From positions 1 to 40,221 of the IMG/VR virus record IMGVR_UViG_3300047564_002327: 40,221 nt of DNA; one strand, 5' to 3'. Made by a program: the position numbers and the translations under genes. Below, one piece after another: positions 4,947 to 40,221 of the stretch (its first letter is position 1; each line of letters begins with the position of its first letter). The DNA is from a virus. The notes under the pieces were generated by a model. It did no database searches. It was given only the letters and a program-made list of their open reading frames with translations, and was not told where the DNA came from.

Positions 4947-6179
4947 ATGAGTTGGCAAACGGAACCAGTTACCCTATTACATATCGAACTATCGACGTTC
5001 TGTAATGCAGCCTGCCCTCTTTGTTTAAGATATTATAATTCTTCAACCATAGTCAGGCCCGACTTAAATCAAACTAGTATTAGCCTAGAGCAATTTAAGA
5101 AATACTTTACAGTAGAATTTTTATCTAATCTTAAGAGAGTAATTTATTGCGGTACAATGGGCGATCCAATGATGGCCCGAGACTGCTATGACATTGTCAA
5201 ATACGTTCATGAAATGAATCCAAAATGTCAGCAGACTTTTCACACTAACGGAGGCCTTCGCGACAATAAGTTTTGGGCTAAGATGGGACAACTGTTTACT
5301 GAGTCCAATATGAAGTTAGTATTCAGCATAGACGGACTTGAAGATACCAATCATTTATATCGTAGAAATGTCAATTGGACTAAGCTAATCAATAATGCAC
5401 AGACATTTATCGACAATGGCGGTCGCGCTCATTGGGAATACTTAATTTTCGATCACAACGATCATCAAGTTGAAGAAGCTCGCCAATTGGCCAAAACTAT
5501 GGGCTTTACTGAATTTGTTTATAAGAGACCCACCGGCTTCGAATCCAGGGAAGGACTATACAAACCTAGAGAAGTATTTGACGACCATGGTGACTTACTC
5601 TATCAAATTTATCCTACAAAAAAGCCAGAATATAACGGCGGCAACAAGATTAAGATTAATAGTTTATTAGACAGTATAATGAATGACGAAAAGTATTCAG
5701 TTGACCTTGGTCTAATAGACGAAGTCAAGCAATTAGGATATTTTCCGCAGATACAACAACGACTAGAAACATTTAGTAGTGACCGTGTTCGGGAATTGGG
5801 CAGCTACAAAGACGAGCTAAACAAACGAGAAGTTAAGTGTAATAGTCTTTGTCAAAAAGATGGCCATGAAATCTATGTCAACGCCGAAGGCATTGTATAC
5901 CCTTGTTGCTTTGTTGGAACCAGATACGATGCTAGACTAGTTAGCTTTGTTGATGACCAATTAAAAATCGCATTTACTCCTTTCAAAGAAAGTCTGGATC
6001 TTAACATACAAAATATCGACACTATTTTAAAGTCGGGGGTGTTTGAAAAGATATTTGTTGAAAGTTGGAGTAAGCCCGGAATAGAAAACGGCAAAATGGC
6101 AATTTGTGCAGAAACTTGCAGCAGTAACAGTTGGTTTGACCTACTATATATTAACAACAAAGAAAAATCAAATGGATAA
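4947..6179 (+). CDS. Radical SAM enzyme with C-terminal SPASM-like domain
   Basis: A 410-residue protein. The radical SAM [4Fe-4S] motif CxxxCxxC is at residues about 19, 23 and 26 (FCNAACPLC). Core features follow: YCGTMGDPMMA (GGEP-equivalent strand), HTNGG, and FSIDGLEDTNHLYRRN. The signature DHNDHQVEEA recurs in three other radical SAM proteins of this window. The C-terminal third carries extra cysteines (KCNSLC, YPCCF, ICAETC) arranged like a SPASM/twitch auxiliary cluster domain. SPASM enzymes commonly modify peptides or carbohydrates using SAM radicals; which applies here is not evident. It lies 3 nt after a putative glycosyltransferase and overlaps the next radical SAM gene by 8 nt. 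Confidence 0.85.
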   Translation: MSWQTEPVTLLHIELSTFCNAACPLCLRYYNSSTIVRPDLNQTSISLEQFKKYFTVEFLSNLKRVIYCGTMGDPMMARDCYDIVKYVHEMNPKCQQTFHTNGGLRDNKFWAKMGQLFTESNMKLVFSIDGLEDTNHLYRRNVNWTKLINNAQTFIDNGGRAHWEYLIFDHNDHQVEEARQLAKTMGFTEFVYKRPTGFESREGLYKPREVFDDHGDLLYQIYPTKKPEYNGGNKIKINSLLDSIMNDEKYSVDLGLIDEVKQLGYFPQIQQRLETFSSDRVRELGSYKDELNKREVKCNSLCQKDGHEIYVNAEGIVYPCCFVGTRYDARLVSFVDDQLKIAFTPFKESLDLNIQNIDTILKSGVFEKIFVESWSKPGIENGKMAICAETCSSNSWFDLLYINNKEKSNG

Positions 6180-7632
6180 TTTAGGAAGATACCGAGAAAC
6201 AAAAGTAGAGCTAGATAAAGTTAGCTCTAGCATGTGTGCGGCTAAATGGAATCAAGTTACTGTGCATTTAGGCACAGGCATGACGCATAGCTGTCACCAT
6301 CCAGCGCCACACAAAATCCCATTGAGTGAAATTGCCAGCAACCCTAGTGCATTACATAATACTAATTTTAAAAAGTCACAGCGCAATCTTATGCTCAACG
6401 GACAAAGACCCAAGGAGTGCGACTATTGCTGGCGAGTAGAAGATGCACACATCAGTGAAACAGAAAATAATGTTTTTAGCGACCGTATAACTAAGAGCTC
6501 TGAATCCTGGGCCTTACCGCATATTCAGTCTTTAAAAGAAACACCATGGACTGCTAACGTAAATCCTCGTTATATGGAAGTCAGTTTCGATACTACATGT
6601 AATCTTAAGTGTGCATATTGCGGCCCTAGTTTCAGCACAACATGGCGTCAAGAGATTGAACAGCACGGTGCTTATAAATTGGGCGACGGTGGATTATATG
6701 ACCTTGGTTGGCTTGAAAGCACAGGGCAGTTACCTATGCCCATCACCAAGCCAAATCCTTATATAGATGCTTTCTGGCAATGGTGGCCTGATGCTGTTAA
6801 AGATATTGAAATATTTAGAATTACCGGTGGTGAACCATTATTAAGTAAACAGGTATTCCGTGTATTGGATTATCTGATCGATAATCCACAGCCGCAGATG
6901 GAGTTTAACATCAACTCTAATTTATGTGTACCAAAAGAAATCTTTAATAGGTTCATTGAAAAAATGCAGATTATTAAAGAAAAAAATGCTGTTAAAGATT
7001 TCAAAGTATACACTAGTAATGAAGCACATGGCGCACATGCAGAGTATATACGTTACGGCCTAGACTATCAGCAGTGGCTGGCAAATTGTCATAGAGTATT
7101 GGCAGAAATTCCCGATAGCAAATTAACAATCATGGCAGCATACAACTTTTTAAGTTTACCTAGCTTTAAATTAATGATGGACGATGTCATTGATATGAAA
7201 TGGAAATATACGGTGCAACCACATCGTAAAAATCCAGTGGGCCTAGACGTTCCATATATACGTTGGCCCGAATTTTTAGCAGCCTGGGTAGGTGATTTTA
7301 ATAAACACTTACCTTACGTTGAAGATGCTGTCACACACATGTTTAGAAATATACATCAAATGTTCTGGCCACCTCTTTGTGGCAAAGGATTCTTTGATTA
7401 CGAAGTAAATAGATTCGAACGTCTCTACTACACTATACGAGAAGAGATGATCAAAGTAGGTGAAGACAAACCGCGTTTAGCAAAACTCAGAGGCGAGTTT
7501 GCTGAATACATATATCAATATGACGAACGCAAAGGCACTAATTTTGTAGAAGTATTCCCTGAGTATGGTGACTTCTATAACGAGTGCAAAGAATATTCAA
7601 AACGATTTAACGAAGGCGAATTTAAAAAATGA
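6172..7632 (+). CDS. Radical SAM enzyme with N-terminal twitch-like four-Cys domain
   Basis: A 486-residue protein starting at ATG 6172; an in-frame ATG at 6106 would overlap the upstream gene by 74 nt and add 22 residues of non-conserved sequence. Before the radical SAM core there is a four-Cys module: C22 (CAAKW), C41 (SCHHP), C83 and C86 (ECDYCW). The SAM cluster motif CNLKCAYC has cysteines 143, 147 and 150, followed by ITGGEPLL. This order, auxiliary cluster first and SAM barrel second, matches what I recall as the twitch domain-containing radical SAM family common in marine phages. The C-terminus (YDERKGTNFVEVFPEY) is shared with the other three copies. The reaction is unknown. The stop overlaps the next start (ATGA) and a close paralogue follows. 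Confidence 0.85.
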   Translation: MDNLGRYRETKVELDKVSSSMCAAKWNQVTVHLGTGMTHSCHHPAPHKIPLSEIASNPSALHNTNFKKSQRNLMLNGQRPKECDYCWRVEDAHISETENNVFSDRITKSSESWALPHIQSLKETPWTANVNPRYMEVSFDTTCNLKCAYCGPSFSTTWRQEIEQHGAYKLGDGGLYDLGWLESTGQLPMPITKPNPYIDAFWQWWPDAVKDIEIFRITGGEPLLSKQVFRVLDYLIDNPQPQMEFNINSNLCVPKEIFNRFIEKMQIIKEKNAVKDFKVYTSNEAHGAHAEYIRYGLDYQQWLANCHRVLAEIPDSKLTIMAAYNFLSLPSFKLMMDDVIDMKWKYTVQPHRKNPVGLDVPYIRWPEFLAAWVGDFNKHLPYVEDAVTHMFRNIHQMFWPPLCGKGFFDYEVNRFERLYYTIREEMIKVGEDKPRLAKLRGEFAEYIYQYDERKGTNFVEVFPEYGDFYNECKEYSKRFNEGEFKK

Positions 7633-9086
7633 GTGAAAAATTAATACAGTGGCGCGATAAAAATCTTAACAGCATTAGCAGATCATTCTGCGCTGCTAAA
7701 TGGTATAATGCCAGCATTCATTTGGGCCACGGTTATACCGGTAGTTGTCATTTGCCTTTACCACATCCAGTAGATATTGAACAGATTAAAATTAAACCAA
7801 ACGCTCTGCATAACACAGACCATAAAAAGCGTATGCGTAAGATGATGTTGGAGGGTGTAGCACCAGCCGAATGTAGCTACTGCTGGAAAATTGAAGGCAT
7901 CGGTCGCAATAATGTCAGTGATAGAATTTATAAGAGTCAGATCTATAGTGAAGCAGACATTGCTAAACTGAAAAACTTACCATGGGATGCTGATGTAGGA
8001 CTTAAGACTCTGGAAGTAAGTTTCGACCGTCAGTGTAATTTTGGTTGTAGTTACTGTAACGCAAGTTACAGCACTAGTTGGCAAGAGGACATAGACAAAA
8101 ACGGTCCTTATCAGAACTTTGCACCAGGCGGCGGCGGCGGAGCTTATCAAAGTGACGGATCGTGGGCCGAAGAACATGGACGTCATTTAGACACTAACCC
8201 TTATGTAGAAGCATTTTTACAGTGGTATCCTGAATTAACAGATACCCTGGACGAGCTGCGTATCACCGGAGGAGAGTCCACAGTCAGTCAAAACTTCTGG
8301 CGCTTTGTTGAGATTATGAAAAAGAATCCTGCGCCTAATATGCGTTTTGCAGTTAATAGTAATTTGGGCAGCGACAAAGGCATTGAACGTCTTATCGAAG
8401 CAACGCATCTATTGCCTATTAAAGAGTTTGACTTATATACCAGTAATGAAAGTTTTGGCGCACATGCAGAATATATTAGAGATGGCCTAAAGTATAATGA
8501 ATGGCGAGCCAACTTAGTTAAGTTCATCGAAAATGCCAACTTCCGTGCCGTTACTATCATGATGACTATTAATAGTCTTTGCTTGTTTAGCATTACTGAA
8601 TTCCTTGATGATATGAGCGAGCTCAAAGCCAAGTATGCTCCTTACAGACCAAACGTAGATTTTAACATCCTGCGTTGGCCTGGCTTTATGAGTCCATTAG
8701 CTTTACCCGATGACATTAAACAAGAATTACATGCCAAACTACAAGCCTGGTTTGATAAAAACCGTAACAGTAACCTATACGGTGATGGCGAAAAAGCACA
8801 AATCCAGCGTTTGTTAGATTATATTGAAGTAGTGAATAAAGGTCACGTTCATACTACTAACGACAAAGATTCTTTGTATCACGACTTTAAGAGTTTCTTC
8901 ACTCAATATGATCGTCGAAGAGGAAAAGATTTTTGCGCTACCTTTCCTAGACTTGCCGACTGGTACAATAACATTCAATTGACCAAAGAGTATCCAATCT
9001 CTCAGCATATTATTAAAGGAAAAATACAGCACTTTGAAGAGGGTGTATATCAGTGGGAAGAGAATAAACCACTCTACGACAAATAA
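7629..9086 (+). CDS. Radical SAM enzyme with N-terminal twitch-like domain (paralogue of preceding gene)
   Basis: A 485-residue protein with the same layout as the gene upstream: auxiliary cysteines C21, C40, C82 and C85 (FCAAKW, SCHLP, ECSYCW), then radical SAM cysteines 136, 140 and 143 (CNFGCSYC). ITGGEST replaces GGEP. A Gly-rich loop (APGGGGGAYQSD) follows the SAM motif region. SNLGSDKG, LYTSNESFGAHAEYIRDGL and the C-terminal YDRRRGKDFCATFPRL align clearly with the upstream copy, indicating duplication with divergence. Heterodimer formation or sequential action on one substrate is possible but not shown. ATGA start overlap; the TAA stop directly abuts the ATG of the frameshifted SGNH gene. 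Confidence 0.85.
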   Translation: MSEKLIQWRDKNLNSISRSFCAAKWYNASIHLGHGYTGSCHLPLPHPVDIEQIKIKPNALHNTDHKKRMRKMMLEGVAPAECSYCWKIEGIGRNNVSDRIYKSQIYSEADIAKLKNLPWDADVGLKTLEVSFDRQCNFGCSYCNASYSTSWQEDIDKNGPYQNFAPGGGGGAYQSDGSWAEEHGRHLDTNPYVEAFLQWYPELTDTLDELRITGGESTVSQNFWRFVEIMKKNPAPNMRFAVNSNLGSDKGIERLIEATHLLPIKEFDLYTSNESFGAHAEYIRDGLKYNEWRANLVKFIENANFRAVTIMMTINSLCLFSITEFLDDMSELKAKYAPYRPNVDFNILRWPGFMSPLALPDDIKQELHAKLQAWFDKNRNSNLYGDGEKAQIQRLLDYIEVVNKGHVHTTNDKDSLYHDFKSFFTQYDRRRGKDFCATFPRLADWYNNIQLTKEYPISQHIIKGKIQHFEEGVYQWEENKPLYDK

Positions 9087-9906
9087 ATGAAAAGATATTT
9101 TGCTTTTGGTTGTAGTTACTCTGACTACGATTGGCCTATGTTACCGGACTTAATCGGAGTAAACTTTGACAAATATTATAATTTTTCCAGCGCCGGCGGG
9201 TGTCATCAGTTTATGCTGATGCAAGTTATATCAGTTAAATCCTGCAACTGATTATATAACCATAGGAACAACAGGATTTGGTAGATTTTCTTTTGCACAG
9301 GAAGGTCCTACCTTCAATGAAACATTTGAATGGAGGAAACATGGAGACATATTTCCAGAGTTTGATCAGCATCCGCCTAAGGCTAGACTGTGGGCTAGAG
9401 AATTTGATAGCTATAGATATTCTGTATACAGGTCACTGTCTGCATTAAAAACTATTAAACTGTTATTAACATCAATGGGTATAAAACACAAAATTTATAA
9501 GGCAGTCCACAATAAGCACCAAGATCCAGAATTTTTACAAAGAGTAACTCTTGACGAACAAACAACAGAAATGGTAACAGAATTTTATTCTCTCTGTGAT
9601 ACTAAAGAATCAGTGGATGATTATCTCATGGACTATATGAGAAATCGCGGAGAATATTATCACCCGTGGCTTGACGGTCATCCTCCTATCAATGTTAGTC
9701 GCCGTTTTTTAGAAATATATTTTCCAGAATATAATACCGATCTTGTTCAGCGTGTTTGTCAAGAAAATGAATATGCTATTAATACCACACCTACTAGAAA
9801 AGAATATGTAGAAAACTTCAGAGAAAATTTTCTAAGAGTATACAGAACAGATTATGATATCCTGAACAGAGTAAAAGGTCATCCTAGGTATGTCAAACAA
9901 ACATAA
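9087..9906 (+). pseudogene. SGNH/GDSL-like hydrolase gene split by a one-base frameshift
   Basis: ATG 9087 opens MKRYFAFGCSYSDYDWPML, a GDSL-type block I with Ser in GCS, like seven other proteins here. This frame stops at TGA 9249-9251 after 54 codons. From about 9232 the next frame continues the expected fold without a break (QLNPATDYITIGTTGFGR) through to TAA 9904-9906. Deleting the T at 9231 would restore one ORF of about 272 codons ending with a D-G-H-P block V-like motif (WLDGHPP). The downstream frame has no ATG, GTG or TTG before 9475, so it lacks its own good start. It is either a genuine inactivating or phase-variable indel, or an assembly error. Read whole, the protein would be a soluble esterase/acyltransferase-like SGNH member. 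Confidence 0.75.
9475..9906 (+). CDS. 3' fragment of the frameshifted SGNH-like gene
   Basis: This is the 143-codon stretch after the first ATG in the downstream frame. There is no Shine-Dalgarno before ATG 9475 and coding-like sequence extends in frame back to 9232, so I read it as the C-terminal half of the split gene rather than an independent protein. It carries the putative catalytic His region (YHPWLDGHPPINVSRRFLEIYF). Its end overlaps the next gene by 17 nt. Confidence 0.45.
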   Translation: MGIKHKIYKAVHNKHQDPEFLQRVTLDEQTTEMVTEFYSLCDTKESVDDYLMDYMRNRGEYYHPWLDGHPPINVSRRFLEIYFPEYNTDLVQRVCQENEYAINTTPTRKEYVENFRENFLRVYRTDYDILNRVKGHPRYVKQT

Positions 9907-11311
9907 GCTATACTTTTACTACGATTACGTTTTTCCTAATTTTATATTGCCAAATGGTCTTAACAAAGAAATGGCAATTATCAACTACATTCATTCTCAA
10001 TATAATAACACTGGCGGAGGCGACGCATTTCTCGAAAGAGACGTAGGACAGCCAGGAAGTCTTATAACTCAAATTTTCGGAGAACACCTAGGGCATTGGC
10101 CCAACAGTATAAGACACGGTGGCCCGCATTTTAAATATGAATGTTATAATGACCTGATTGACATCACTGAAGAAAGTGTTCATCTTGGCAGATGGCGACA
10201 TAAAAAATATATCTACCCCATCAAAGTCAGTCCACATATTAACGATTTCCTTGGTATGACTTGGCCAGGACAAAAAATTCTTGGAGACGGATTTTGGAAA
10301 AATATCAGCGAGCAAGCACTAACTGATATTCGTAATGGCGATGCTATTTTATTCTTAGATTGGGCTCAGGAAAATTATTTAAACTTCGCTCAGTTAACTA
10401 GATTCAATGACCTTATTGCCGAAGCAAACCTTCCTGCAGAAAATGTCATATTAGCACATAACGGCTTTAATCTTCAAGAAGAATACGAAAGGATATTTGC
10501 TCCTGAACAACGCCGGCTAACTGTAAAAAATTGGCCGTTTCTGATGTTTCATAATTCTTGGTGGTTTAACAAACATCTTCAATATATAGTATCAGAAAAA
10601 CAATTTTTGGAATCTAAAAATGTTAAACGGGATCATCATTTCTTATTGAGAATACGTCGAACACGATCATATAGAATAGCCCTGCTATATAAACTAGCTA
10701 GCGAAAATTTGTTAGACCGCGGTGATTGGAGCATGTTAGATGGTGGCTTGACTGAACACAATGGTTTTAACATGGCTAATGAATTTATGCTAGGCTATGA
10801 TACGGCTAAAGTTCAGGAATTACACTGGAAATTTCCGCATAGATTAAAAAGCGAACCAGATTCGTCTTTTTATAACGTATCTGGTTGGGGCGATATAAAG
10901 TCTACACACAGCTTAACTAGCTATTTTGATATAACAACAGAAACATATATGGAAGGCAGCTATAAATCTTTTACAGAAAAAGTTTGCAAGCCATTGATGA
11001 ATTTTCAACCATTCGTCTTGATAAGTTTTTGCGGAGCCCTTAAATTGCTAAAAGAATTAGGCTTTAAAACTTTTAATGGATTTATTGATGAGAGCTATGA
11101 TCTCGAACCCGACCCCGTTAGACGTTTGTCCATGGCCTATAAAGAAATTGAAAAACTTGCAAAGATGTCTAAGGATCAAATACATGACTGGTATTGGCAG
11201 CAACAAGATACATTAGTTCATAACCATAAAACTTTCATGAACTTCCATAAAACAGATCGTTATAATTTAGATCTCATAGCCTATTTAGAAAAAAGAATAA
11301 GTGATGTATAA
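9890..11311 (+). CDS. Large DESYD-family protein, possible glycosyltransferase
   Basis: A 473-residue soluble protein, first of three paralogues. The N-terminal half has DAILFLDWAQENYLNF and NVILAHNGFN, Rossmann-like strands. The middle has FLLRIRRTRSYRIALLYKLA, a basic helix-entry motif. The C-terminal block is the most conserved: SFTEKVCKPLMNFQPFVLIS, then LLKELGFKTFNGFIDESYDLEPDP. A TEK motif before a hydrophobic strand recalls the donor-binding region of GT-B enzymes such as GT10 fucosyltransferases, but I cannot confirm homology. Glycosyltransferase is therefore an inference from that motif and from the surrounding sugar genes. It overlaps the next paralogue by 8 nt. Confidence 0.55.
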   Translation: MSNKHKLYFYYDYVFPNFILPNGLNKEMAIINYIHSQYNNTGGGDAFLERDVGQPGSLITQIFGEHLGHWPNSIRHGGPHFKYECYNDLIDITEESVHLGRWRHKKYIYPIKVSPHINDFLGMTWPGQKILGDGFWKNISEQALTDIRNGDAILFLDWAQENYLNFAQLTRFNDLIAEANLPAENVILAHNGFNLQEEYERIFAPEQRRLTVKNWPFLMFHNSWWFNKHLQYIVSEKQFLESKNVKRDHHFLLRIRRTRSYRIALLYKLASENLLDRGDWSMLDGGLTEHNGFNMANEFMLGYDTAKVQELHWKFPHRLKSEPDSSFYNVSGWGDIKSTHSLTSYFDITTETYMEGSYKSFTEKVCKPLMNFQPFVLISFCGALKLLKELGFKTFNGFIDESYDLEPDPVRRLSMAYKEIEKLAKMSKDQIHDWYWQQQDTLVHNHKTFMNFHKTDRYNLDLIAYLEKRISDV

Positions 11312-12710
11312 AATACCATTCCTATATGATTATGTATTTGCCAACTTGGTGCTACCTAATGCATTGAGTCATGAGTTTGCTTTGATGACCTACATGCACA
11401 CTCAGTATACCAATAGACATAAGACCACAGACTTTCTAGAAGCACAGTTTGGATATACTGATCAAACACTAGCGGGCTATATGTTTGACAATGCTCTAGG
11501 GTTGCACCCTAACAGTGTAGGCAATAGCAATATATTTTCTCACTGCTATAATGATTATTTGACCTGCGAAGAAGATAGTCTTTACTACGGTAAACGTAAG
11601 TATAACAAATATATCTACCCTATCCGGATTAATGCTTATATAGATGCCTTTGTAGGCAATGGCCACGCCGGCCAAAAAATCAACGGTGAATACTTTTGGA
11701 AAAATATGAGCGCCGAGGCTCTTAAAGATGCACAAGAAGGCCGTGCTATCATCTTATTAGATTACGGACAAGAAAATTATTTGCACAAAGGCACTATCGA
11801 GGCCTTTCATAATTGTCTAGAGAAAGCAGGCATTCCGGGTGGTAATATTATTTTTGCCATCAACAGTTTTAATGCAGAACACGTTTACGATCAATGGTTT
11901 CCTGATTCAGGCAAAAGATTTGAAATGCACAGCTGGCCATTTGTAGCTGCTAATGTATCATATCACTACAATGTTTTCCCGCAACAGCGAATTAGTATGG
12001 AGCAGTTCAATAACTTGCGTAATGTAAAAAGACAGCACCACTTCTTATTTCCTGTCCGCCGCCCGCGCGATCATCGTGTTGCTATGTTGTTCGGACTTGC
12101 AAGTGCAGGTGTCTTAGACAAATCCGACTGGAGCTGCTTAACGCCATTTCAACTAGAAGAACATATTCTCATGCAGTTAGAAGAAAAATACAACACAATT
12201 TACAACAGAACCAAACTACGAGAAATTTGCGGACAACTACCTAAAACATTGACCACAGAGTCAGATAGAAATTATACAGACTACGGGCCGTGGAGTGATA
12301 ATAATCCTGATGCATATATGAACAGTTATTTTTATATCTGCACAGAAACATATACAGAAGGGCCGTTCCGAAGCCTAACTGAAAAAGTATTCAAGCCGAT
12401 CGTCAATATGCAACCATTCTTCATGGTTGCTTATCCGGGGGCTCTGGCCTTATTGCGTGAATTGGGGTTTAGAACATTTAGTTCTGTAATAGATGAAAGT
12501 TATGATGTTGAACCTGACACTACCAAACGCATCGCGATGATAATCAAAGAAGTAGAGCGGTTAGCTGCCATGGACATTAATCAACTACATAACTTATATT
12601 GGCAATTAGAAGATGTGTTAGTTCATAACCATAATCATTTCTTACAGTATCATAACAATGACGTTAAAGGTCGTAAGTTTATAGAATATTTGCATTCGAG
12701 GATATCATAA
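11304..12710 (+). CDS. Large DESYD-family protein, possible glycosyltransferase (second copy)
   Basis: A 468-residue tandem paralogue of the preceding gene. Start taken at ATG 11304; GTG 11301 is an in-frame alternative. It keeps the family order: IPFLYDYVFANLVLPNALS at the N-terminus, AIILLDYGQENYLHKG, HFLFPVRRPRDHRVAMLFGL, and the C-terminal SLTEKVFKPIVNMQPFFMVA with LLRELGFRTFSSVIDESYDV. Similarity to the first copy runs end to end, so this is a tandem duplication that has diverged, probably towards different donor or acceptor specificity. It ends in a TAATG junction with the RmlC-like gene, linking the pair to nucleotide-sugar synthesis. Confidence 0.55.
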   Translation: MYKIPFLYDYVFANLVLPNALSHEFALMTYMHTQYTNRHKTTDFLEAQFGYTDQTLAGYMFDNALGLHPNSVGNSNIFSHCYNDYLTCEEDSLYYGKRKYNKYIYPIRINAYIDAFVGNGHAGQKINGEYFWKNMSAEALKDAQEGRAIILLDYGQENYLHKGTIEAFHNCLEKAGIPGGNIIFAINSFNAEHVYDQWFPDSGKRFEMHSWPFVAANVSYHYNVFPQQRISMEQFNNLRNVKRQHHFLFPVRRPRDHRVAMLFGLASAGVLDKSDWSCLTPFQLEEHILMQLEEKYNTIYNRTKLREICGQLPKTLTTESDRNYTDYGPWSDNNPDAYMNSYFYICTETYTEGPFRSLTEKVFKPIVNMQPFFMVAYPGALALLRELGFRTFSSVIDESYDVEPDTTKRIAMIIKEVERLAAMDINQLHNLYWQLEDVLVHNHNHFLQYHNNDVKGRKFIEYLHSRIS

Positions 12711-13255: not shown

Positions 13256-13261
13256 CAGGTC

Positions 13262-13269
13262 ACTAAATA
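13262..13269 (+). promoter_or_regulatory. T4-like late promoter (ACTAAATA)
   Basis: ACTAAATA lies in the 33-nt gap between the RmlC-like gene and the TPP-enzyme alpha subunit, 19 nt before ATG 13289. AAGGAA at about 13279-13284 provides a ribosome binding site. It shares the TAAATA core with the other intergenic gaps. Confidence 0.5.
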
Positions 13270-13288
13270 TAAGTCAACAAGGAAACAC

Positions 13289-16875: not shown

Positions 16876-16899
16876 TTTATAATTTGGCTTTTTAAGATA

Positions 16900-22568: not shown

Positions 22569-22570
22569 CA

Positions 22571-26402: not shown

Positions 26403-26549
26403 ATGGAAAACACAGAGCCAAAAAAAGAACAGGAACAACTACCTGTAGTAGAAGAAAAACAAAAAACTAAAGAAGAATTAGAGTGGGAAGAACAACTTAA
26501 ACTGCGTCTAGAAGAACTACGCAAAAGAGATCCTTTTATCTACAAATGA
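26403..26549 (+). CDS. Small acidic/charged helical protein (48 aa)
   Basis: ATG 26403 has AAGGAG 5 nt upstream, and the ORF runs 48 codons to TGA 26547-26549, overlapping the carbamoyltransferase start by ATGA. The product (MENTEPKKEQEQ... ending RDPFIYK) is almost entirely Glu, Lys, Gln, Leu and Arg, with heptad-like leucines in EELEWEEQLKLRLEELRKR, so a single long helix or coiled coil is likely. It has no Cys and no obvious leader/core boundary, so a RiPP precursor is unlikely. The promoter, strong Shine-Dalgarno and coupling suggest it is real and may be a partner or translational leader of the downstream enzyme. Function unknown. Confidence 0.75.
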   Translation: MENTEPKKEQEQLPVVEEKQKTKEELEWEEQLKLRLEELRKRDPFIYK

Positions 26550-28034: not shown

Positions 28035-28042
28035 CTCATATA

Positions 28043-32502: not shown

Positions 32503-32513
32503 GGAACAATATT

Positions 32514-33749
32514 GTGTCTATAGAAAAATGGTTTCCGCCCGAAGGTAAAACAGTCTGTTTACAAAAATGGAGTCAAGTAAGTCTTTACCTATGGGAAAAT
32601 AAAAGCAGCAGTTGTCACAGAAATCAAAATGCCGACGTTCCCGATGACTACGATTTTAATAATACAGCACCCGTAGTTGAGCACAGAGAAAAGATGCTAA
32701 GGGGAGAATGGCCCAGCGATGGCCGGGGCTGTGAGCATTGCAGGGATCAGGAATTGGCCGGCGGAATGAGTGACAGATTAAACTATCTGTCTAGACCCGA
32801 TAATAAAAGATATGTTCCCATAGAGCTATATAAAAATCCTTCAGCTACTCGTGTAAAGCCAACTCAATTGAGTGTGCATTTTAATAATAAATGTAACCTA
32901 AAATGTTTATACTGCGGCCCTAATCTAAGTAGTGCATGGGTAAAAGAAAAATGGCAGCATGAACAGGGCAAAAGTTACGAATTTGATCCATGGGAATTAG
33001 ACAGTGTATACAAGGCAAGATTAGAAAAATTCTTCAAGTGGATGGAAAATAACTACAGTAGTCTTAAGGCCTTTGATCTATTAGGCGGCGAACCTTTTAT
33101 TCAAACAGAAGTATGGGACTGTGTTGATTGGATGATTGCTCATCCTAATCCTGAATGTGATATTGAAATCTACAGCAACATGCAAGTCAAGCCTGTGCTG
33201 TTTAAAAGAGGCATGGATAAATTAAAAGAACTGGCTAAAACTGTAAGAGAAGTTAGATTTGTAGCCAGTATAGATTGTTGGGGTCCTGCTAGCGAATATA
33301 TTCGAAACGGCATGGACTTGATAACTTTCGAAGAAAATATGAATTACCTTGTCAATGAGTGCTCAGAAATTATTCCAACTATGAACTGGACAGTAAGCTC
33401 TCTCAGTATACCTTATATACCTGAGCTAATTAAAAAAGTTATCGAATGGAATAAAAAACGCAGTATAAGCGTTAACTATAATAAATGTATAGATCCTATT
33501 ATATACGATCCGCACATCATGCCTACAGGAACATACACTGAATATATTAAAGAAATTCTAGACTTAAACAAAGAAATGTATAAGCACGATAACATATCTT
33601 CCATGTATGCTGAAGGTATCTTTAACGAAATAGAAAACAGTCCGGCTATCCCAGCAAAAATTCAACAATTAAAAGAAGAACTAGATAGACTAGACAGTAG
33701 ACGAGGAACTAACTGGCAAGAAACTTTCCCATGGTTAGTAAACATATGA
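32514..33749 (+). CDS. Radical SAM enzyme with N-terminal twitch-like domain (short)
   Basis: A 411-residue protein starting with GTG 32514 after AAGGAAC. The four-Cys N-terminal module is C15 (VCLQKW), C34 (SSCHRN), C73 and C76 (GCEHC), with the same C-x18-C spacing as its relatives. The radical SAM motif CNLKCLYC has cysteines 127, 131 and 134, and FDLLGGEPFIQTEVW is the GGEP strand. The C-terminal DSRRGTNWQETFPWLV matches the family tail. It is about 75 residues shorter than the copies at 6172 and 7629, mainly in the barrel loops. The end overlaps the next radical SAM gene by ATGA. Confidence 0.85.
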   Translation: MSIEKWFPPEGKTVCLQKWSQVSLYLWENKSSSCHRNQNADVPDDYDFNNTAPVVEHREKMLRGEWPSDGRGCEHCRDQELAGGMSDRLNYLSRPDNKRYVPIELYKNPSATRVKPTQLSVHFNNKCNLKCLYCGPNLSSAWVKEKWQHEQGKSYEFDPWELDSVYKARLEKFFKWMENNYSSLKAFDLLGGEPFIQTEVWDCVDWMIAHPNPECDIEIYSNMQVKPVLFKRGMDKLKELAKTVREVRFVASIDCWGPASEYIRNGMDLITFEENMNYLVNECSEIIPTMNWTVSSLSIPYIPELIKKVIEWNKKRSISVNYNKCIDPIIYDPHIMPTGTYTEYIKEILDLNKEMYKHDNISSMYAEGIFNEIENSPAIPAKIQQLKEELDRLDSRRGTNWQETFPWLVNI

Positions 33750-34687
33750 AAATATATAACGATGTGAAGAGATTCACAATCGACTGGACGCTAAACACTC
33801 TTTGCACTTACCACTGTAGTTACTGCCATCCTAGCCTTCATCGCGGCACAAATATATTACGAAGCAAAACAGAAGATCCTGCAATCATTAAAAATTTTTT
33901 AACTAGGCTAAGGGATCAATTAGCGGGCCGCAGTGTTCATATATACATAAATGGCGGCGAGCCCACTATTAGCCCTAGTCTAGAAACAATCATTGATTTT
34001 TGTGCAGAGTCTAATTGGTGTGCTTATGTTAATACCAATGGCAGTCGTAGCCTGGAATGGTGGCAGGAATATGCTAAAAAAATATTTAAGGTAACCATTA
34101 GTTATCATCCTGAAACTGTCGTTGATGAAGAAATATTCGAAAAAGTAGAATACATCGGTACACAGACCAACGTAGGAGTCTTTACCTTAATGTATCCTCC
34201 TTTATGGGATAAAGCACAAAATGCCTATAAAACATTCAAGGCCATGGATAAAGTTACTATTGCTCCCAGTAGAGTCTTTAAAAGAGACGAACACGCACAT
34301 GATTTGAGCTACGAATATAATGAACAACAGCTAGCATGGCTCAAAGAAAATAGCGATGTTATATTTAAAAATAACGATTTCCCGCCACCCGGCAACAATT
34401 ATTACGGAGAAACCTGGATAGAAGATAACGGCCATGTAGAAAAATTAGACGAAGTAGAATTTACCAATAATAGAAAAAACACCTTTGTTGATTGGAAATG
34501 TAACATGGGTGTGGATCATATTTTTATTAGGCCCACTGGAGAGATATTGCAGTCTGCTTGTAGACAAGCTAAAAAAATTGCCACCATATTTGATTTTGAA
34601 AAACTAATGACAGAGCCATCTGTATGTAAGACACAATGGTGTATGTGTACCGCAGATGTGTTAATACCGAAAACTTACAATGAATAA
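33746..34687 (+). CDS. Radical SAM enzyme (short type)
   Basis: A 313-residue protein starting at ATG 33746 (ATGA overlap; a Met at 33731 is in frame but inside the upstream gene). Radical SAM cysteines 20, 24 and 27 are in LCTYHCSYCHPSLHRG; HIYINGGEPTISPSLE supplies the GGEP motif; VNTNGSRSLEWW and TISYHPETV continue the barrel. The C-terminus has WKCNMG, QSACRQ and CKTQWCMC, cysteines consistent with an auxiliary cluster. It differs from both other subtypes in the window and resembles the generic phage/O-antigen-associated radical SAM proteins. Substrate unknown. Confidence 0.85.
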   Translation: MKIYNDVKRFTIDWTLNTLCTYHCSYCHPSLHRGTNILRSKTEDPAIIKNFLTRLRDQLAGRSVHIYINGGEPTISPSLETIIDFCAESNWCAYVNTNGSRSLEWWQEYAKKIFKVTISYHPETVVDEEIFEKVEYIGTQTNVGVFTLMYPPLWDKAQNAYKTFKAMDKVTIAPSRVFKRDEHAHDLSYEYNEQQLAWLKENSDVIFKNNDFPPPGNNYYGETWIEDNGHVEKLDEVEFTNNRKNTFVDWKCNMGVDHIFIRPTGEILQSACRQAKKIATIFDFEKLMTEPSVCKTQWCMCTADVLIPKTYNE

Positions 34688-34692
34688 AGATT

Positions 34693-35751
34693 ATGCAATA
34701 TCTGACAGAGCCTATTCGACTACAATTTGAACTCAGCTCAATGTGCAATGCATTGTGCCTGGGCTGTGTAAGAACAGATACTGATACATTCTCGCATACC
34801 AAAGAAATCATTGAGTCTAAGAAATATATTTCTTTGGATGTCTTTAAGAAAATAATCGATGCAGAAGAATTTGCTTCAGTTACTGAGCTAGAGTTTTGTG
34901 GAACCATCGACGATCCTTTAATGCATCCCAACTTCTTAGAAATGCTGGAATATGCTGCCAGAAGAAAATTTAAAATATTAATTCACTCTAATGCTAGCCT
35001 AAGGAACAGATCATATTGGATAGACCTAGCTAGTATACTACAGCAACACGATAGTCACATTGTAAGATTTAGCATAGATGGACTAGAGGATACTAATCAC
35101 ATATATAGACAAAATACCAGCTGGCCAAAGATCATGGAAAATGCACAGGCATTTATACAAGCAGGCGGACACGCAATGTGGCAATTTTTAATATTTCCAT
35201 GGAATAAACATCAGGTCAATGACGCACATCAGCTTAGTAAAGACATGGGTTTTGCAGAGTTTGTGTCTAGGCATGATAGAAGTATTGCCACTGGTTATGG
35301 CTTAGAAAAAATACAAAAAATTAAAGTAGAAAATATACAAAAGACTCGAGTAGCTTCGTCGATTCAGGACATAAACAAAGAACTGGAAAATAAAGTCACT
35401 GATAATATCAACTGCGACACTAAAAACAGGAAGATGTATTTCATTGGTTACGATTCTAAATTATGGCCCTGTTGTTTTTTACATAACGGATTCATGAAAT
35501 CAGATATAGGCAAAGTAAATCATTTAAAAGACAGATTATTTGGCGCCTATGATTCTGATACATGGAATGACTTGACCCTACACTCTGTTGGGGAAGTATT
35601 AGGCCATCCTTTTTACACAAATGATCTAGTTACCAGCTGGCAGAGCAATGACCATGGCACCAATAAATACAGCAGAATAACACGTTGTACCGAAGTATGC
35701 AGTGTAAAAAAGTTAAAAGAATTACCTATAGGAAACTATAAAAAACTATGA
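34693..35751 (+). CDS. Radical SAM enzyme with C-terminal SPASM-like domain (third copy)
   Basis: A 352-residue protein. Cysteines 18, 22 and 25 (MCNALCLGC) form the SAM cluster. The shared blocks are EFCGTIDDPLMHPNF, FSIDGLEDTNHIYRQN, MENAQAFIQAGGHAMWQF and PWNKHQVNDAHQLSKDMGF. The auxiliary cysteines are INCDT, WPCCF and RCTEVC. It departs from the other copies in the SAM strand (TIDDP instead of GDP). The 5-nt gap before it and ATGA overlap after it keep it within the operon with the SGNH gene that follows. Confidence 0.85.
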   Translation: MQYLTEPIRLQFELSSMCNALCLGCVRTDTDTFSHTKEIIESKKYISLDVFKKIIDAEEFASVTELEFCGTIDDPLMHPNFLEMLEYAARRKFKILIHSNASLRNRSYWIDLASILQQHDSHIVRFSIDGLEDTNHIYRQNTSWPKIMENAQAFIQAGGHAMWQFLIFPWNKHQVNDAHQLSKDMGFAEFVSRHDRSIATGYGLEKIQKIKVENIQKTRVASSIQDINKELENKVTDNINCDTKNRKMYFIGYDSKLWPCCFLHNGFMKSDIGKVNHLKDRLFGAYDSDTWNDLTLHSVGEVLGHPFYTNDLVTSWQSNDHGTNKYSRITRCTEVCSVKKLKELPIGNYKKL

Positions 35752-36509
35752 AGCAAGTGCATTTTTTTGGTTGTAGTCATACTGCCGGCGACGAACTGTC
35801 CGACGAAGAATTCTTTCCATGGAAAAAAGATTGTGCCACAGCAGAAGAGTATTATACTCGCAGAAATCAATTATTATCAGTAGATGGTTCATTTCTGGAA
35901 GAATATATAAGCAGTAATAAAAACAAAGCCTATCCTGCATTAATTGCGGACAATGAGATTGTTACTTATAATCATGCAGTAAATGGTGCTAGTCTCAGGG
36001 AAATGATTTTTAAAGCTGCACAGCTAGTTGAACAACAGGTCATCACAGACACGTCAATAGTATACTTTCAAATACCTCCTTATCCTAGAGAAGTTTATAT
36101 AAGTCATATAGAAATTAGTTCCCTTCAAATGGCAGGTATAGGGCTGATAGATAAAGACGAGATAAACAATTATAAAAAATCAAAATGGTTATCCCACGAT
36201 ATTATATTGGACCAATCAGCAAATGATATATTAGATATCATTCTTTTAAAGGGGTTTTTTGCATCTAAGAATATACCAATTTATTTTTTGATATTAAACA
36301 GATATCTGCAGGGCCGTATCAAAGATATGCAATCTCGTAGTCATAATTATGACTACTTAGAAAAATTACTACGTAAAGAAATAAAGTCAACCATTTGGTT
36401 CAGCGATCTAGAATTTTGCCCAAAATTAATGGGCGGACACAACAGTCCAGCCGGCCATGCTATTATTGCCAATGAGATAAAAAAGCACATATTAGAAAAT
36501 AAATATTAA
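35748..36509 (+). CDS. SGNH-like protein
   Basis: A 253-residue protein. Block I is QVHFFGCSHTAGDELSDEE, the oxyanion region is YNHAVNGASLREMIFKAAQ, and the C-terminal LMGGHNSPAGHAIIANEIKKH has His residues in the position of block V, but the Asp of DxxH is not obvious. The strand SIVYFQIPPYPREVY corresponds to block III. Its place between two radical SAM genes is the same pattern as the frameshifted SGNH gene after 7629-9086, so SGNH and radical SAM proteins may work on the same intermediate. No signal peptide. ATGA start. Confidence 0.6.
   Translation: MKQVHFFGCSHTAGDELSDEEFFPWKKDCATAEEYYTRRNQLLSVDGSFLEEYISSNKNKAYPALIADNEIVTYNHAVNGASLREMIFKAAQLVEQQVITDTSIVYFQIPPYPREVYISHIEISSLQMAGIGLIDKDEINNYKKSKWLSHDIILDQSANDILDIILLKGFFASKNIPIYFLILNRYLQGRIKDMQSRSHNYDYLEKLLRKEIKSTIWFSDLEFCPKLMGGHNSPAGHAIIANEIKKHILENKY
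36498..36505 (+). promoter_or_regulatory. Possible T4-like late promoter (AATAAATA), low confidence
   Basis: AATAAATA lies within the last codons of the SGNH gene, 7 nt before ATG 36513. It may be chance, since Lys, Asn and Tyr codons at that C-terminus generate the motif. No additional support. Confidence 0.25.
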
Positions 36510-36512
36510 ACA

Positions 36513-37916
36513 ATGGAAGAACTACCAAGCAAAACATTTTGTATTTTACCCTGGATACATTTGAGCACAAGACCTAATGGTCATATGAGGGTGTGCTGCA
36601 CGGCTAATGCCAGCAGTGTTGGTCCAACCAACGATAAAGAACACGGGGGAGAAGTGGGTGTTTTAAAAAATGCCGACGGCAAGCCTGCTAACTTAAATGT
36701 CACAGACTTTTTAAGTGCATGGAATAACGACTATATGAAAAACAACCGCCTGCAGATGTTAGCAGGTATGGAACCACCTAGTTGTATGAAGTGCTATAAA
36801 GAAGAACGTGCAGGCCATAAAAGCAAGCGCCAATGGGAGACCAAGTATTGGGGACAGCGAGTTGATATAAATCAACTAGTTAAGGATACCGCAGAAGATG
36901 GTAGTATTCCGCCTAAGATTGCCTACATTGACATGCGCTTTGGTACCAAGTGTAACCTAGCCTGCGTTATGTGCAGTCCGCATGACAGTAGTTTATGGGT
37001 GCCTGAGTGGAACGCTGTTTATCCGCAGATTCAAAATGAAAGCCTTAAGGAAACTATGGGCTGGAATAATAAAGGCAAAGAGAATGGCGCCAGCTATAAC
37101 TGGCATAAGAATAATCCAGAATTCTGGACACAGTTGTGGGACCAGATTCCTAACATGAAGCAGCTTTATTTTGCCGGCGGCGAGCCTTTAATCATTGAAG
37201 AGCATTACGAGATTCTAGAACAGTGTATCAAGCAGGGCTATGCCAAAGATATGGAAATACGCTATAATAGTAATGGCGTGGAGTGGCGCGAAGACTTATT
37301 TGAATTATGGAGTCACTTTAAGTTGGTGCGTTTCCATTATAGCGTTGATGCTGTAGGCGAACGCAATGACTATATTCGTTATCCCAGTAAGTGGGAACGA
37401 AACTTAGAAGCATTCCGTCAACTAGATGAAGAAACTACAGACAACGTAGAAGTTACTATTGCCTGTGCAGTTCAGGCACTAAACATCTACTATATACCTG
37501 AATTCTTAAAGTGGAAATTAGAACACGGCTTTAAGAAAGTTAATATGTGGCCATTTGGTGCAGGCGGTATTAACTATCACTTTGTTTATCACCCACCACA
37601 TCTAAATGTTAAGATATTGCCCGCATGGTTCAAGGATGAAATAGAAGCCAAGTATGAAGAATTTATTCCATGGTGGAAAGCTAACTGGAAACTGGGCGTT
37701 CCTAAATGGTATGAAGGTCGTGTTACAGAAGAGCAGTGGCTTAATGCAGACTACGGCATTGATCGCCTAAGAGGCATGGTTCGATTTGCCAAGAGCGAAG
37801 ACTGGAGTCGTAGATTGCCTGAGATGAAAGAATATCTAGAAACTCTAGACAAGCATAGAGGTACGGACTTCTATAAAACGTTCCCTGAGATGAAAGATAT
37901 TTTTAAGGATATTTAA
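36513..37916 (+). CDS. Radical SAM enzyme with N-terminal twitch-like domain
   Basis: A 467-residue protein, visibly more G+C-rich than its neighbours. N-terminal cysteines are C10 (FCILPW), C28/C29 (VCCTAN), C91 and C94 (SCMKCYKEE), in the twitch-like order; radical SAM cysteines are 147, 151 and 154 (KCNLACVMC), with YFAGGEPLII for GGEP. The tail is DKHRGTDFYKTFPEM, again shared with the other three copies. The FCILPW...HLSTRPNGHMRVCC opening is the most typical form of the phage twitch-domain radical SAM family as I know it. It starts 3 nt after the SGNH gene and ends with a TAATG junction to another SGNH gene. Confidence 0.88.
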   Translation: MEELPSKTFCILPWIHLSTRPNGHMRVCCTANASSVGPTNDKEHGGEVGVLKNADGKPANLNVTDFLSAWNNDYMKNNRLQMLAGMEPPSCMKCYKEERAGHKSKRQWETKYWGQRVDINQLVKDTAEDGSIPPKIAYIDMRFGTKCNLACVMCSPHDSSLWVPEWNAVYPQIQNESLKETMGWNNKGKENGASYNWHKNNPEFWTQLWDQIPNMKQLYFAGGEPLIIEEHYEILEQCIKQGYAKDMEIRYNSNGVEWREDLFELWSHFKLVRFHYSVDAVGERNDYIRYPSKWERNLEAFRQLDEETTDNVEVTIACAVQALNIYYIPEFLKWKLEHGFKKVNMWPFGAGGINYHFVYHPPHLNVKILPAWFKDEIEAKYEEFIPWWKANWKLGVPKWYEGRVTEEQWLNADYGIDRLRGMVRFAKSEDWSRRLPEMKEYLETLDKHRGTDFYKTFPEMKDIFKDI

Positions 37917-38620
37917 TGCCTAGGATGCTGGCTTTTGGCGACAGTTGGACCATTGGAGACTGCACTGATTTAATCAATGAAAATATCATAGTCAGTGATC
38001 ACACTGTAACGGACTTTGAACTATTTAACTGCAAGGTCTTTAAGACACCATGGCCTAACATTGTTGCTGATCGACTAGGAATTCCGATAAACAATTTCGG
38101 AATATCAGGTAATTGCAACAAAGCTATCATTACTCAACTGTATGATTATCAGTTATTTCATGGATTCAATGACAAGGATATTGTATTAGTTTTACTGTCA
38201 ACATGGCATAGATCATATTCCTGGAAGGAAAAAACAGAATTTAAGTATAATAAAATAATTTCAGAACATAGTTCTGCTAATTATGGTCCAGCACATCTCA
38301 GTCGGCCGGGTCATCTTGAAATAGATAATGTTAATAAAAACGCATACGATGCTTTTTTTGATTTTTACACCATAAAGAATTATCTAGAGAACATTGGCGT
38401 TAGATACTATATAGGATGGGCGTTTACACAATTAAGTGATTTTACCGAAAGTCTTTCATCGGAATACAGTGAAGAAATTTTATTGACAAAAAATTTACTG
38501 CACCCATTTATTAACTTTTGTAAAATTGTTAATCCCTCGAAACTACTTCACCCGACATTGGAAGATCACATCAATTATGCTAACTATGTTTACGAAAGAA
38601 TAGTGAAGGATAGATTATAA
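37916..38620 (+). CDS. SGNH/GDSL-like protein
   Basis: A 234-residue protein with block I MLAFGDSWTIGDCTDL (true GDS), oxyanion region INNFGISGNCNKAIITQL and the strand DIVLVLLSTWHRSYSW. Near the C-terminus, KLLHPTLEDHINYANYVYERI carries His in the place of block V, though without the usual D two or three residues before. It is the smallest SGNH-like protein in the window. It starts by TAATG from the radical SAM gene, consistent with a linked role, and ends 23 nt before the 2OG oxygenase. Confidence 0.65.
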   Translation: MPRMLAFGDSWTIGDCTDLINENIIVSDHTVTDFELFNCKVFKTPWPNIVADRLGIPINNFGISGNCNKAIITQLYDYQLFHGFNDKDIVLVLLSTWHRSYSWKEKTEFKYNKIISEHSSANYGPAHLSRPGHLEIDNVNKNAYDAFFDFYTIKNYLENIGVRYYIGWAFTQLSDFTESLSSEYSEEILLTKNLLHPFINFCKIVNPSKLLHPTLEDHINYANYVYERIVKDRL

Positions 38621-38643
38621 AGAAAATGCTCGAAAGGATTAAA

Positions 38644-39468
38644 ATGGATCATAATTTAGAATATGTGCCAGGAGACAACCTAGTTAAACAATTTATACCA
38701 GTTGACAGTGCAGAACATTCACGCTGGATGAGCACCTGGAGCGACAGCAGCTATGCAGTGGATAATGTTTTCACTGAAGAAGAACTTGTTTGGTTAGAAG
38801 AGCTCATGCATAGAGAGCACAGAACACGCAGGGTCAAACGTAATGGTACACTGCATTTTAATGTAGATAATCAGCGCATACAGGATAGATTTTTTGGGAA
38901 ATTAAAAGAAGTAATCCCTGAATTAACCAATGACACCACATGGGAAGGTAATTTTTTAATTACTGCTACTCCGTATAATCTTCACATTGACACTGGCAAT
39001 CCTAATACTCTTAAAGACAGCGACAGTGTTCCTGGCAAACAATTTATTATTCCACTATGGGTCTGTCATACTAATAAAGACGAAGAACATCCAATGTCAG
39101 GCACAGCTATTTTTAAAAATAGGTTCTTAATGTATGGTACCAATTTTGCTAAGAATAGTCCTCAATATGAAACTAACGTATTTTATACTATCAGTGACTA
39201 TCGCGGTATGCCCTGTTATCATAGAGACGGTACGCCATGGGACGTAGACTGGAATAAACGCACCATTGATGACGAAACATACAACAAATACTTTACTCAC
39301 TATAAAAGAGAATGGCTAGATGGTTTTGAACTGGAAGCTGTGTATAATTGGCAGCGAGGTGGAATTATTGTATTTGATCGTTGCCAAGCACACAGTGGAA
39401 CAAACTTCATAAAGAATAAAGTAACAATGAAATGTGGCCTATCAATGATGGCAACTATTAGAAAATGA
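38644..39468 (+). CDS. Probable 2OG-Fe(II) oxygenase
   Basis: A 274-residue protein. Start at ATG 38644 is supported by GAAAGGA at 38631-38637; an in-frame ATG at 38626 has no Shine-Dalgarno. TPYNLHIDTGN gives a His-x-Asp pair, and FDRCQAHSGTNF supplies the distal His, a double-stranded beta-helix pattern as in phytanoyl-CoA-type oxygenases. FIIPLWVCHT and GGIIVFDR are the flanking strands. The 2OG-binding basic residue is not certain; Lys or Arg in NKVTMKCGLSMMAT may serve. It resembles hydroxylases found in phage clusters but differs from the one at 16950. It ends with an ATGA junction to the next radical SAM gene. Confidence 0.65.
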   Translation: MDHNLEYVPGDNLVKQFIPVDSAEHSRWMSTWSDSSYAVDNVFTEEELVWLEELMHREHRTRRVKRNGTLHFNVDNQRIQDRFFGKLKEVIPELTNDTTWEGNFLITATPYNLHIDTGNPNTLKDSDSVPGKQFIIPLWVCHTNKDEEHPMSGTAIFKNRFLMYGTNFAKNSPQYETNVFYTISDYRGMPCYHRDGTPWDVDWNKRTIDDETYNKYFTHYKREWLDGFELEAVYNWQRGGIIVFDRCQAHSGTNFIKNKVTMKCGLSMMATIRK

Positions 39469-40221
39469 TAGAATTAAAAGATATACAATTAGTTCACGTT
39501 GAAGCTAGTAGCAGATGTAATAGCCAATGCCCTATGTGTAGTAGATACACTGGACATGGCTTTGTTCAGCCTGATTTAGCTGAAGGAGATTTATCAGCTG
39601 ATGTTTTTTATAAGTTGTTTACTAAAGAGTTTACTAGTCAACTAGAACATGTATACTTCAGCGGAGTCTACGGAGATCCTTGCTTAAACAAATTATTACC
39701 AGAGTTTGTTAATTATCTAATAGACAATGGTTGTAAGGGTGTTAGCATAGATACCAATGGCGGTTATCGCAGTGAAGATTGGTGGGCAAGTTTGGCTCGT
39801 CCTAATGTTCTTATTAACTTTGCCCTAGACGGTACCGATAATGAAACTCTAGACAAATATAGGATTGGCGTTAGATATGATAAAGTCTATGCTAATCTAA
39901 GAGCCTATGTAGCCGCCGGCGGACATGCACAGTGGAACTTTATTGTGTTTAAGCATAATGAACATCAAGTAGAAACAGCCAAAAAATTAGCAGAAGAGTT
40001 GGGTGTAAAGTTTAGATTAAAGGTTACCCAGAAGTTCAGGGGAAAGAAGGACTTTAAAGTAATGGTAAAAGGGCAGCAGGTTTCGACATTAGAGCCTCCG
40101 GAGCAGGAAAAATACAGACATACCAATATTGGAAATGCCGAACATATTCCAATTACACTGTTTAAATTTGATATTAAAAATTATACCAAATTAAATCAAA
40201 ATAAAATCACTTGTAAGAGTT
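39465..40221 (+). CDS. Radical SAM enzyme, SPASM type (5' part, runs off the window)
   Basis: ATG 39465 overlaps the upstream stop (ATGA), and the frame is open for 252 codons to the right edge. Cysteines 18, 22 and 25 (RCNSQCPMC) form the SAM motif; YFSGVYGDPCL, DTNGGYRSEDWW, FALDGTDNETLDKYRIG and FKHNEHQVETAKKLAEELG match the copies at 4947, 31327 and 34693. LDGTDNETLDKYRIG departs from the LDGLEDTNH(L/I)YR of the other three. The SPASM-like C-terminus, if present, lies outside the window; a Cys (ITCKS) is just appearing at the edge. Confidence 0.85.
   Translation, partial: MIELKDIQLVHVEASSRCNSQCPMCSRYTGHGFVQPDLAEGDLSADVFYKLFTKEFTSQLEHVYFSGVYGDPCLNKLLPEFVNYLIDNGCKGVSIDTNGGYRSEDWWASLARPNVLINFALDGTDNETLDKYRIGVRYDKVYANLRAYVAAGGHAQWNFIVFKHNEHQVETAKKLAEELGVKFRLKVTQKFRGKKDFKVMVKGQQVSTLEPPEQEKYRHTNIGNAEHIPITLFKFDIKNYTKLNQNKITCKS

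Follow-up and report, generated by a model that had tools for sequence, protein, structure and literature searches.

What would a virus do with nine radical S-adenosylmethionine (rSAM) genes on one piece of DNA? The question is posed by IMGVR_UViG_3300047564_002327, a linear IMG/VR virus record whose full 40,221 bases (here, the window) hold 43 genes, all on one strand. Our analysis suggests that the most likely role of these genes is to make or remodel an unusual sugar coat, a reading that we favor because the core genes of the locus also occur on bacterial chromosomes, where they lie partly inside surface-polysaccharide loci. Phages with many rSAM genes are already known; the cassette described here is real and phage-borne and was partly anticipated, and no published description or explanation of it was found in a limited search of the open-access literature.

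Searches with PF04055 gave exactly nine matches in the window, at the nine places that a preliminary description, made from the letters of the sequence, had named, and CxxxCxxC is present in all nine proteins, each of which belongs to the rSAM superfamily. The curated cut-off of PF04055 was reached by eight of the nine (by the 6106 gene only when it was searched with its neighbors in frame); the 32514 gene scored only 19.4 bits with this model but 237.9 bits with NF033640, the N-twitch rSAM model, whose curated cut-off is 170 bits. With the longest open reading frame (ORF) as guide, two starts move, from 6172 to 6106 and from 33746 to 33731. Three architectures are represented: four N-twitch proteins, four proteins with a C-terminal four-cysteine (half-SPASM) module, and one short protein (33731), which had been recognized as such before. 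NF033640 places g8 (6106), g9 (7629), g36 (32514), and g40 (36513) above its cut-off, at 238 to 436 bits, bearing out the N-terminal cysteine module already noticed in four genes. This module (Cys10/28-29/91/94) aligns with residues 183 to 258 of BtrN at all four twitch ligand positions; C10, C91, and C94 are kept in 44 of 44 aligned sequences, and C28 and C29 in 35 of 44 each. The order of domains is swapped, with the twitch N-terminal in the N-twitch proteins and C-terminal in BtrN.

The remaining four proteins had been called SPASM-like. The SPASM domain is defined by seven cysteines, in the motif CX9-15GX4C-gap-CX2CX5CX3C-gap-C. What the four proteins share is N-x-HQVxxA and a C-terminal C-x18-C...C-x3-C, kept in at least 46 of 47 aligned relatives; beyond C-x18-C and C-x3-C the seven-cysteine pattern is not conserved, and no rSAM protein of the window gave a Pfam SPASM match. 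The shared motif and the C-terminal cysteines stand, and with four ligands only, and Pfam finding no SPASM domain, half-SPASM/twitch describes the module better. The fourth member, g43, is cut by the contig edge, and its complete homologue in a related contig (G007, below) has 353 residues. In the AlphaFold2 model of g35 (predicted local distance difference test, pLDDT, 92.6), the nearest fold is BlsE, followed by SkfB, SuiB, and anSME, and BlsE was again the best-matched enzyme in a profile search with the half-SPASM type. BlsE, a sugar decarboxylase, and BtrN, which acts on an aminocyclitol, both have sugar-like substrates; their similarity to the window enzymes is distant, with low identity, and lies at the level of profile and fold.

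The window itself is a fragment with no gp23 or other hallmark phage gene, and its phage-like character, asserted earlier, is borne out through close relatives. G007, a contig of 233 kb, is syntenic with the window gene for gene, its stretch from 82.4 down to 45.9 kb covering the whole window, and it extends beyond both ends, with more rSAM genes there. Its gp23 capsid gene (also present in the relatives G004 and G006) shares 68% identity with the gp23 of Sinorhizobium phage Phosso and of PA5oct-type jumbo phages. A second contig, G013, is likewise syntenic, many further relatives are found in IMG/VR, and base composition is uniform along the window. The 30 large relatives that we searched all hold several rSAM genes, 5 to 22 per contig; because these contigs were picked for encoding a g35 or g40 relative, the range describes this group and not phages at large. 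A chimeric assembly, or a cellular fragment misfiled as viral, might have been suspected from the missing hallmark gene and from the bacterial relatives of the cassette. With the synteny to G007 and G013, the gp23 of G007, the uniform composition, the 30 of 30 related contigs, and a g40 phage clade apart from the bacterial one, we regard this explanation as effectively ruled out, and the window as a single contiguous locus.

In G007, proteins of 2,910 and 1,151 residues are encoded upstream of g1. The equivalent place in Pseudomonas phage PA5oct (Arenbergviridae, Wroclawvirus) holds a giant protein, a baseplate wedge, gp10 (the tail pin), and EST35_0123 (homologous to g1), each recorded as detected by electrospray ionization tandem mass spectrometry (ESI-MS/MS). 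From this shared gene order, we read the window as the last tail gene followed by a variable island; unlike the window, PA5oct lacks rSAM genes altogether, as well as an island after g1. Phage host-recognition islands (PMC7029224) likewise have variable glycan genes immediately following those for tail and baseplate, and, judged from gene order, the window appears to be a hypervariable island of a T4-like jumbo phage, placed right after its tail/baseplate genes.

Within this island, a core cassette recurs across phage loci in the order carbamoyltransferase, one to three GT-A-like transferases, g34, half-SPASM rSAM, and N-twitch rSAM, usually with the short rSAM as well. With g35 or g40 as anchor, 69 loci measured 18 kb or more; among these we found the N-twitch rSAM in 66, GT-A-like genes in 62, g34 in 55, the short rSAM in 43, and the carbamoyltransferase in 42, counts that are not independent, some contigs being counted twice. 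Two fusions occur: two GT-A-like domains with g34 (L101:2706-5237) and two N-twitch rSAM domains in one protein of 849 residues (L165:7540-10089). No fusion of a transferase with an rSAM domain, which would be a direct functional link, was found among these loci. The D-x-D of the GT-A-like family (D89/D91 in the alignment) is invariant, and the AlphaFold2 model of g32 (pLDDT 88) retrieves GT-A enzymes throughout its list of top PDB folds, with weak scores. Between the window and G007, nonsynonymous divergence (dN) is 0.08 to 0.31 while synonymous divergence (dS) is large or saturated, which indicates that the genes are maintained under purifying selection. As a separate observation, in a single-cell marine virus contig (L193, MH319727) a carbamoyltransferase lies directly 5' of an N-twitch rSAM gene.

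The cassette is not confined to phages, as had been proposed for the pathway. Of 369 genomes in the phylum to which a Bdellovibrionales metagenome-assembled genome (MAG) belongs, taken as Bdellovibrionota, 126 gave NF033640 matches at E <= 1e-30; in the phylum represented by a Planctomycetota MAG, 4 of 294 genomes did so at the different threshold of E <= 1e-60. A genome search with the single g40 sequence found only two MAG contigs, one apparently phage. Twelve bacterial loci (13 to 20 kb), selected for strong hits, contain the short rSAM in 12 cases, the half-SPASM type in 11, GT-A-like genes in 8, and g34 in 6, and the bacterial copies are chromosomal, since their contigs reach 1.6 Mb. Three loci place the cassette beside polysaccharide genes: UDP-GlcNAc 2-epimerase, GT1, Bac_transf, and Polysacc_synt_2 (L218); Asn synthase, two GT2, and an acyltransferase-SGNH (L220); and DegT with GT2 (L222). 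The outcome that was to speak against phage specificity, proteins falling into ordinary cellular polysaccharide clusters, thus applies in part, to some Bdellovibrionota loci. In the g40 tree, phage and Bdellovibrionota sequences form separate clades, which suggests an old, shared cassette and leaves recent capture from Bdellovibrionota unsupported. The exception is L191, filed under a Planctomycetota MAG and carrying four rSAM-type genes in 5.8 kb; since its g40 falls among the phages, it is probably phage sequence in the bin. One Bdellovibrionota chromosome (G088, contig C21, loci L225/L228, from L225:14388-18799 onward) has g1-, g2-, g3-, g4-, and g6-like genes in phage order beside rSAM genes, a block that may be a prophage remnant, a domesticated tail protein, or a transferred island. 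The g2 gene was found in this genome alone, 1 of 359 in the phylum. Elsewhere in it (L229, G088:C1, 8947-15571), two N-twitch rSAM genes, a short rSAM, a carbamoyltransferase, and an SGNH-like gene lie in a chromosomal setting.

What, then, is the substrate? Around the rSAM genes, in a block of 35 kb, lie GT-A-like transferases, three NAD-dependent epimerase/dehydratases, an RmlC-like epimerase, a split thiamine diphosphate (TPP) enzyme, a carbamoyltransferase, methyltransferases, and 2-oxoglutarate (2OG) oxygenases, in keeping with the sugar chemistry suggested at the outset. We hold it about evenly probable that the island encodes a cytosolic pathway for unusual sugars whose glycan is most likely put on the surface polysaccharide of the infected cell; the co-oriented run of sugar-nucleotide, TPP, carbamoyl-, and methyltransferase genes counts for it. 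These genes, together with the oxygenase and transferase genes, would synthesize, edit, and transfer unusual sugars in the cytosol. The core cassette would add the distinctive chemistry, its rSAM enzymes abstracting hydrogen from sugars to epimerize, oxidize, or decarboxylate them, and the remaining rSAM, SGNH-like, short-chain dehydrogenase/reductase, TPP, methyl-, and 2OG enzymes would vary the product. The glycan would then be placed on the host polysaccharide through host export machinery, with a benefit such as the exclusion of competing phages. Gene content, synteny, conservation of the cassette, the bacterial counterparts, the GT-A-like fold, and the Fe-S ligands come from the data; that a sugar is the substrate, what each enzyme does to it, which acceptor is used, and what the phage gains are inferred. 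The host polysaccharide is favored as acceptor because in bacteria the cassette functions with no virion to decorate, and some of its copies are found within polysaccharide loci. More tentatively, and with a somewhat lower probability, the core cassette could be an undescribed system for a radical-edited glycan common to T4-like jumbo phages and Bdellovibrionota, which the phages diversify by stacking up to about 20 rSAM genes.

Several observations weigh against the sugar pathway. The window has no flippase, polymerase, ligase, transporter, or other convincing multi-span membrane protein, and thus does not resemble an exported polysaccharide locus of the Wzx/Wzy or ABC type, so that export would have to be borrowed or unneeded. 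The GT-A assignment has weak scores (best E 4.7e-4, template modeling score about 0.2 to 0.35). With SkfB, SuiB, and anSME close behind BlsE, the predicted fold by itself cannot tell sugar from peptide substrates, and several bacterial loci, L224 and L225 among them, show no obvious sign of being polysaccharide clusters.

The lack of membrane proteins would also suit a glycan built in the cytosol and attached to tail proteins of the phage itself (g1 or fibers), altering adsorption or shielding the particle. The cluster adjoins the tail operon in the same orientation, the PA5oct homologue of g1 was detected by ESI-MS/MS, the first PDB fold match of g32 (a weak one) is a transferase that glycosylates the PBCV-1 capsid, and G088 keeps the g1-to-g6-like block beside rSAM genes; phage-encoded virion glycosylation is known in mycobacteriophages, as cited in PMC12619734. 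We nevertheless consider this rather unlikely: PA5oct has g1 without any rSAM gene, and the occurrence of g2 in 1 of 359 genomes versus the N-twitch rSAM in 126 of 369 indicates that the cassette works without a tail protein. Two other products are less likely. In a peptide or natural-product pathway, the rSAM enzymes would act on a ribosomal peptide or a repeat protein (for example the Gly-Tyr repeat of g1), to which the transferases would add sugars; this would fit the near folds of the peptide enzymes SkfB, SuiB, and anSME and the long GYGYGY run in g1. The hallmarks of a cluster for ribosomally synthesized and posttranslationally modified peptides are missing, however: the largest gap (9087-9474) is part of a frame-shifted SGNH-like gene with no small precursor ORF seen there (part of the small ORFs of the window were examined), and g35 has no N-terminal peptide-binding domain, as its modeled rSAM fold begins at residue ~9. 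Nor is the repeat a universal rSAM substrate, being present in G007 and G013 and absent from the g1 of G012, a contig with 22 rSAM genes, with PA5oct again having g1 and no rSAM. We regard this pathway as improbable, and decoration of phage DNA bases by the transferases, carbamoyltransferase, and oxygenases as more improbable still. Carbamoyl-, glycosyl-, and 2OG-type enzymes do occur in phage base modification, and those of the window are cytosolic enzymes of these types. Against this stand the bacterial chromosomal copies, partly in polysaccharide loci, the sugar-nucleotide genes, and the want of a base hydroxymethylase in the window.

The preliminary description took rSAM genes to occur singly or in small numbers in phages, which earlier reports contradict. 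Campylobacter phages CP220 and CPt10 carry 11 and 12 rSAM genes, five of them clustered (PMC2853527), and a coli phage carries six (PMC3322345). A T4-like genome of 183 kb, TARA_ERS488813_N000010, has 12, treated in the available part of its report as Fe-S-cluster metabolism, with no pathway proposed there (PMC5332604). The available part of the work on pelagimyophages describes a hypervariable host-recognition island at the tail genes with glycosyltransferases and lipopolysaccharide (LPS)-type genes, whose variants differ by rSAM cassettes, and reads such islands as LPS/O-antigen editing; these T4-like phages are smaller, infect SAR11, and are not reported in that part to carry the present cassette (PMC7029224). 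The sections of open-access jumbo-phage overviews available to us do not mention an rSAM expansion. CP220 and CPt10 resemble the window in being T4-like and in having an rSAM cluster, accompanied by sugar-transferase-like genes, a short way past baseplate-type genes, and three CP220 rSAM proteins match the half-SPASM profile (3e-34 to 2e-30 in a small search). Unlike those of the window, the CP220 transferases do not match the GT-A or g34 profiles, and no carbamoyltransferase was seen in the genome stretch inspected; an amidinotransferase is present instead, homologues of which adjoin the cassette in L109, L113, and L114. Pelagibacter phage Mosig has rSAM-type genes with a carbamoyltransferase, a methyltransferase, and a sugar aminotransferase, and Vibrio phage K566 has three neighboring annotated rSAM genes. 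Some T4-like phages with about a dozen rSAM genes have been on record since 2010 without explanation. The puzzle is now narrowed to a defined cassette whose gene order is conserved, which has counterparts on bacterial chromosomes, and to which some cultured phages carry distant relatives; substrate and purpose thereby become testable. If the sugar reading is true, phages would hold a great store of radical carbohydrate chemistry still to be tapped, which would probably serve contests over the cell surface or the coating of virions.

Table 1. Genes of the window, with coordinates and the basis of each assignment
Feature	Position	Strand	Basis
g1, last tail/baseplate operon gene, 5' end cut off, long Gly-Tyr repeat	2..889	+	Homologues in G007 and PA5oct (EST35_0123, ESI-MS/MS, beside gp10 tail pin and baseplate wedge)
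g2, small conserved protein	936..1301	+	90% identity in G007
g3 and g4, possible glycosyltransferases (g3: DVD motif)	1294..3028	+	By eye from motif
g6, GT-A-like glycosyltransferase family, copy 1 of 4	3960..4943	+	g32 paralogue; alignment
g7, rSAM with C-terminal four-cysteine (half-SPASM) module	4947..6179	+	PF04055 33.1 bits; all seven Cys columns
g8, N-twitch rSAM	6106..7632	+	NF033640 290.7 bits
g9, N-twitch rSAM	7629..9086	+	NF033640 282 bits
SGNH-like gene, frame-shifted; 3' part is ORF 9475-9906	9087..9906	+	Two-frame match to intact 260-residue G007 homologue
g11 and g12, paralogous proteins of ~470 residues; third copy g15	9890..12710	+	Alignment
g13, dTDP-sugar 3,5-epimerase-like (RmlC family)	12710..13255	+	PF00908 E=6e-33
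g14, TPP-enzyme E1 alpha-type half	13289..13918	+	PF00676 E=1.3e-14
g15, third g11/g12 paralogue	13890..15335	+	Alignment
g16, methyltransferase	15335..15895	+	PF13578
g17, NAD-dependent sugar epimerase/dehydratase	15892..16875	+	PF01370 E=4e-32
g18, 2OG-Fe(II) oxygenase	16950..17732	+	PF13640
g19 and g21, NAD-dependent epimerase/dehydratases; methyltransferase-like g20 between	17784..20370	+	PF01370, PF05175
g23, g24, g26, g28, g29, SGNH-like hydrolases; also g25, g27	20794..26382	+	SGNH: N-terminal motif only
g27, TPP-enzyme pyrimidine-binding half	24206..24799	+	PF02779
g30, Nol/TobZ-type carbamoyltransferase, first core-cassette gene	26546..28018	+	PF16861 E=1e-53; phrog_1601 E=1e-101
g31, g32, g33, three GT-A-like glycosyltransferases, invariant D-x-D	28043..30483	+	g32 AlphaFold2 model, PDB fold matches
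g34, core-cassette protein, methyltransferase-like by motif	30467..31327	+	Fused to two GT-A domains in one relative
g35, rSAM with four-cysteine module, core cassette	31327..32502	+	PF04055; AlphaFold2 fold
g36, N-twitch rSAM	32514..33749	+	NF033640 237.9 bits
g37, short rSAM	33731..34687	+	PF04055 31.0 bits; partial STM4011/viperin/QueE-like matches
g38, rSAM with four-cysteine module	34693..35751	+	PF04055 28.8 bits alone, above cut-off in genome search; seven Cys
g39, SGNH-like by motif	35748..36509	+	Lipase_GDSL E=0.11 only
g40, N-twitch rSAM, best-conserved member of core cassette	36513..37916	+	NF033640 436 bits; bacterial homologues 60-65% identical
g41, SGNH-like (motif), and g42, 2OG-oxygenase-like (by eye)	37916..39468	+	No significant Pfam match
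g43, rSAM, four-cysteine type by homology, cut by contig edge	39465..40221	+	PF04055 44.5 bits; full-length G007 homologue 78% identical

For some products, the searches add little to Table 1: g3, g4, and g34 have no match in Pfam or PDB, and fold searches with g11, g12, and g15 gave no usable match. The SGNH genes named earlier keep their sequence motifs, whereas their Pfam GDSL matches stay below threshold and fold searches by sequence gave nothing usable. The frame shift in the SGNH-like gene at 9087-9906, around 9223-9236, is either real or a sequencing error. Tandem repeat proteins with a WLPNEVRKL-type motif stand beside the bacterial cassette at L201:6-842, L220:10823-11275 (abutting a GT2 gene), and L214:105-698. 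Finally, the two TPP-enzyme halves, g14 and g27, are both in this island, separated by about 10 kb; together they may serve a branched-chain sugar.

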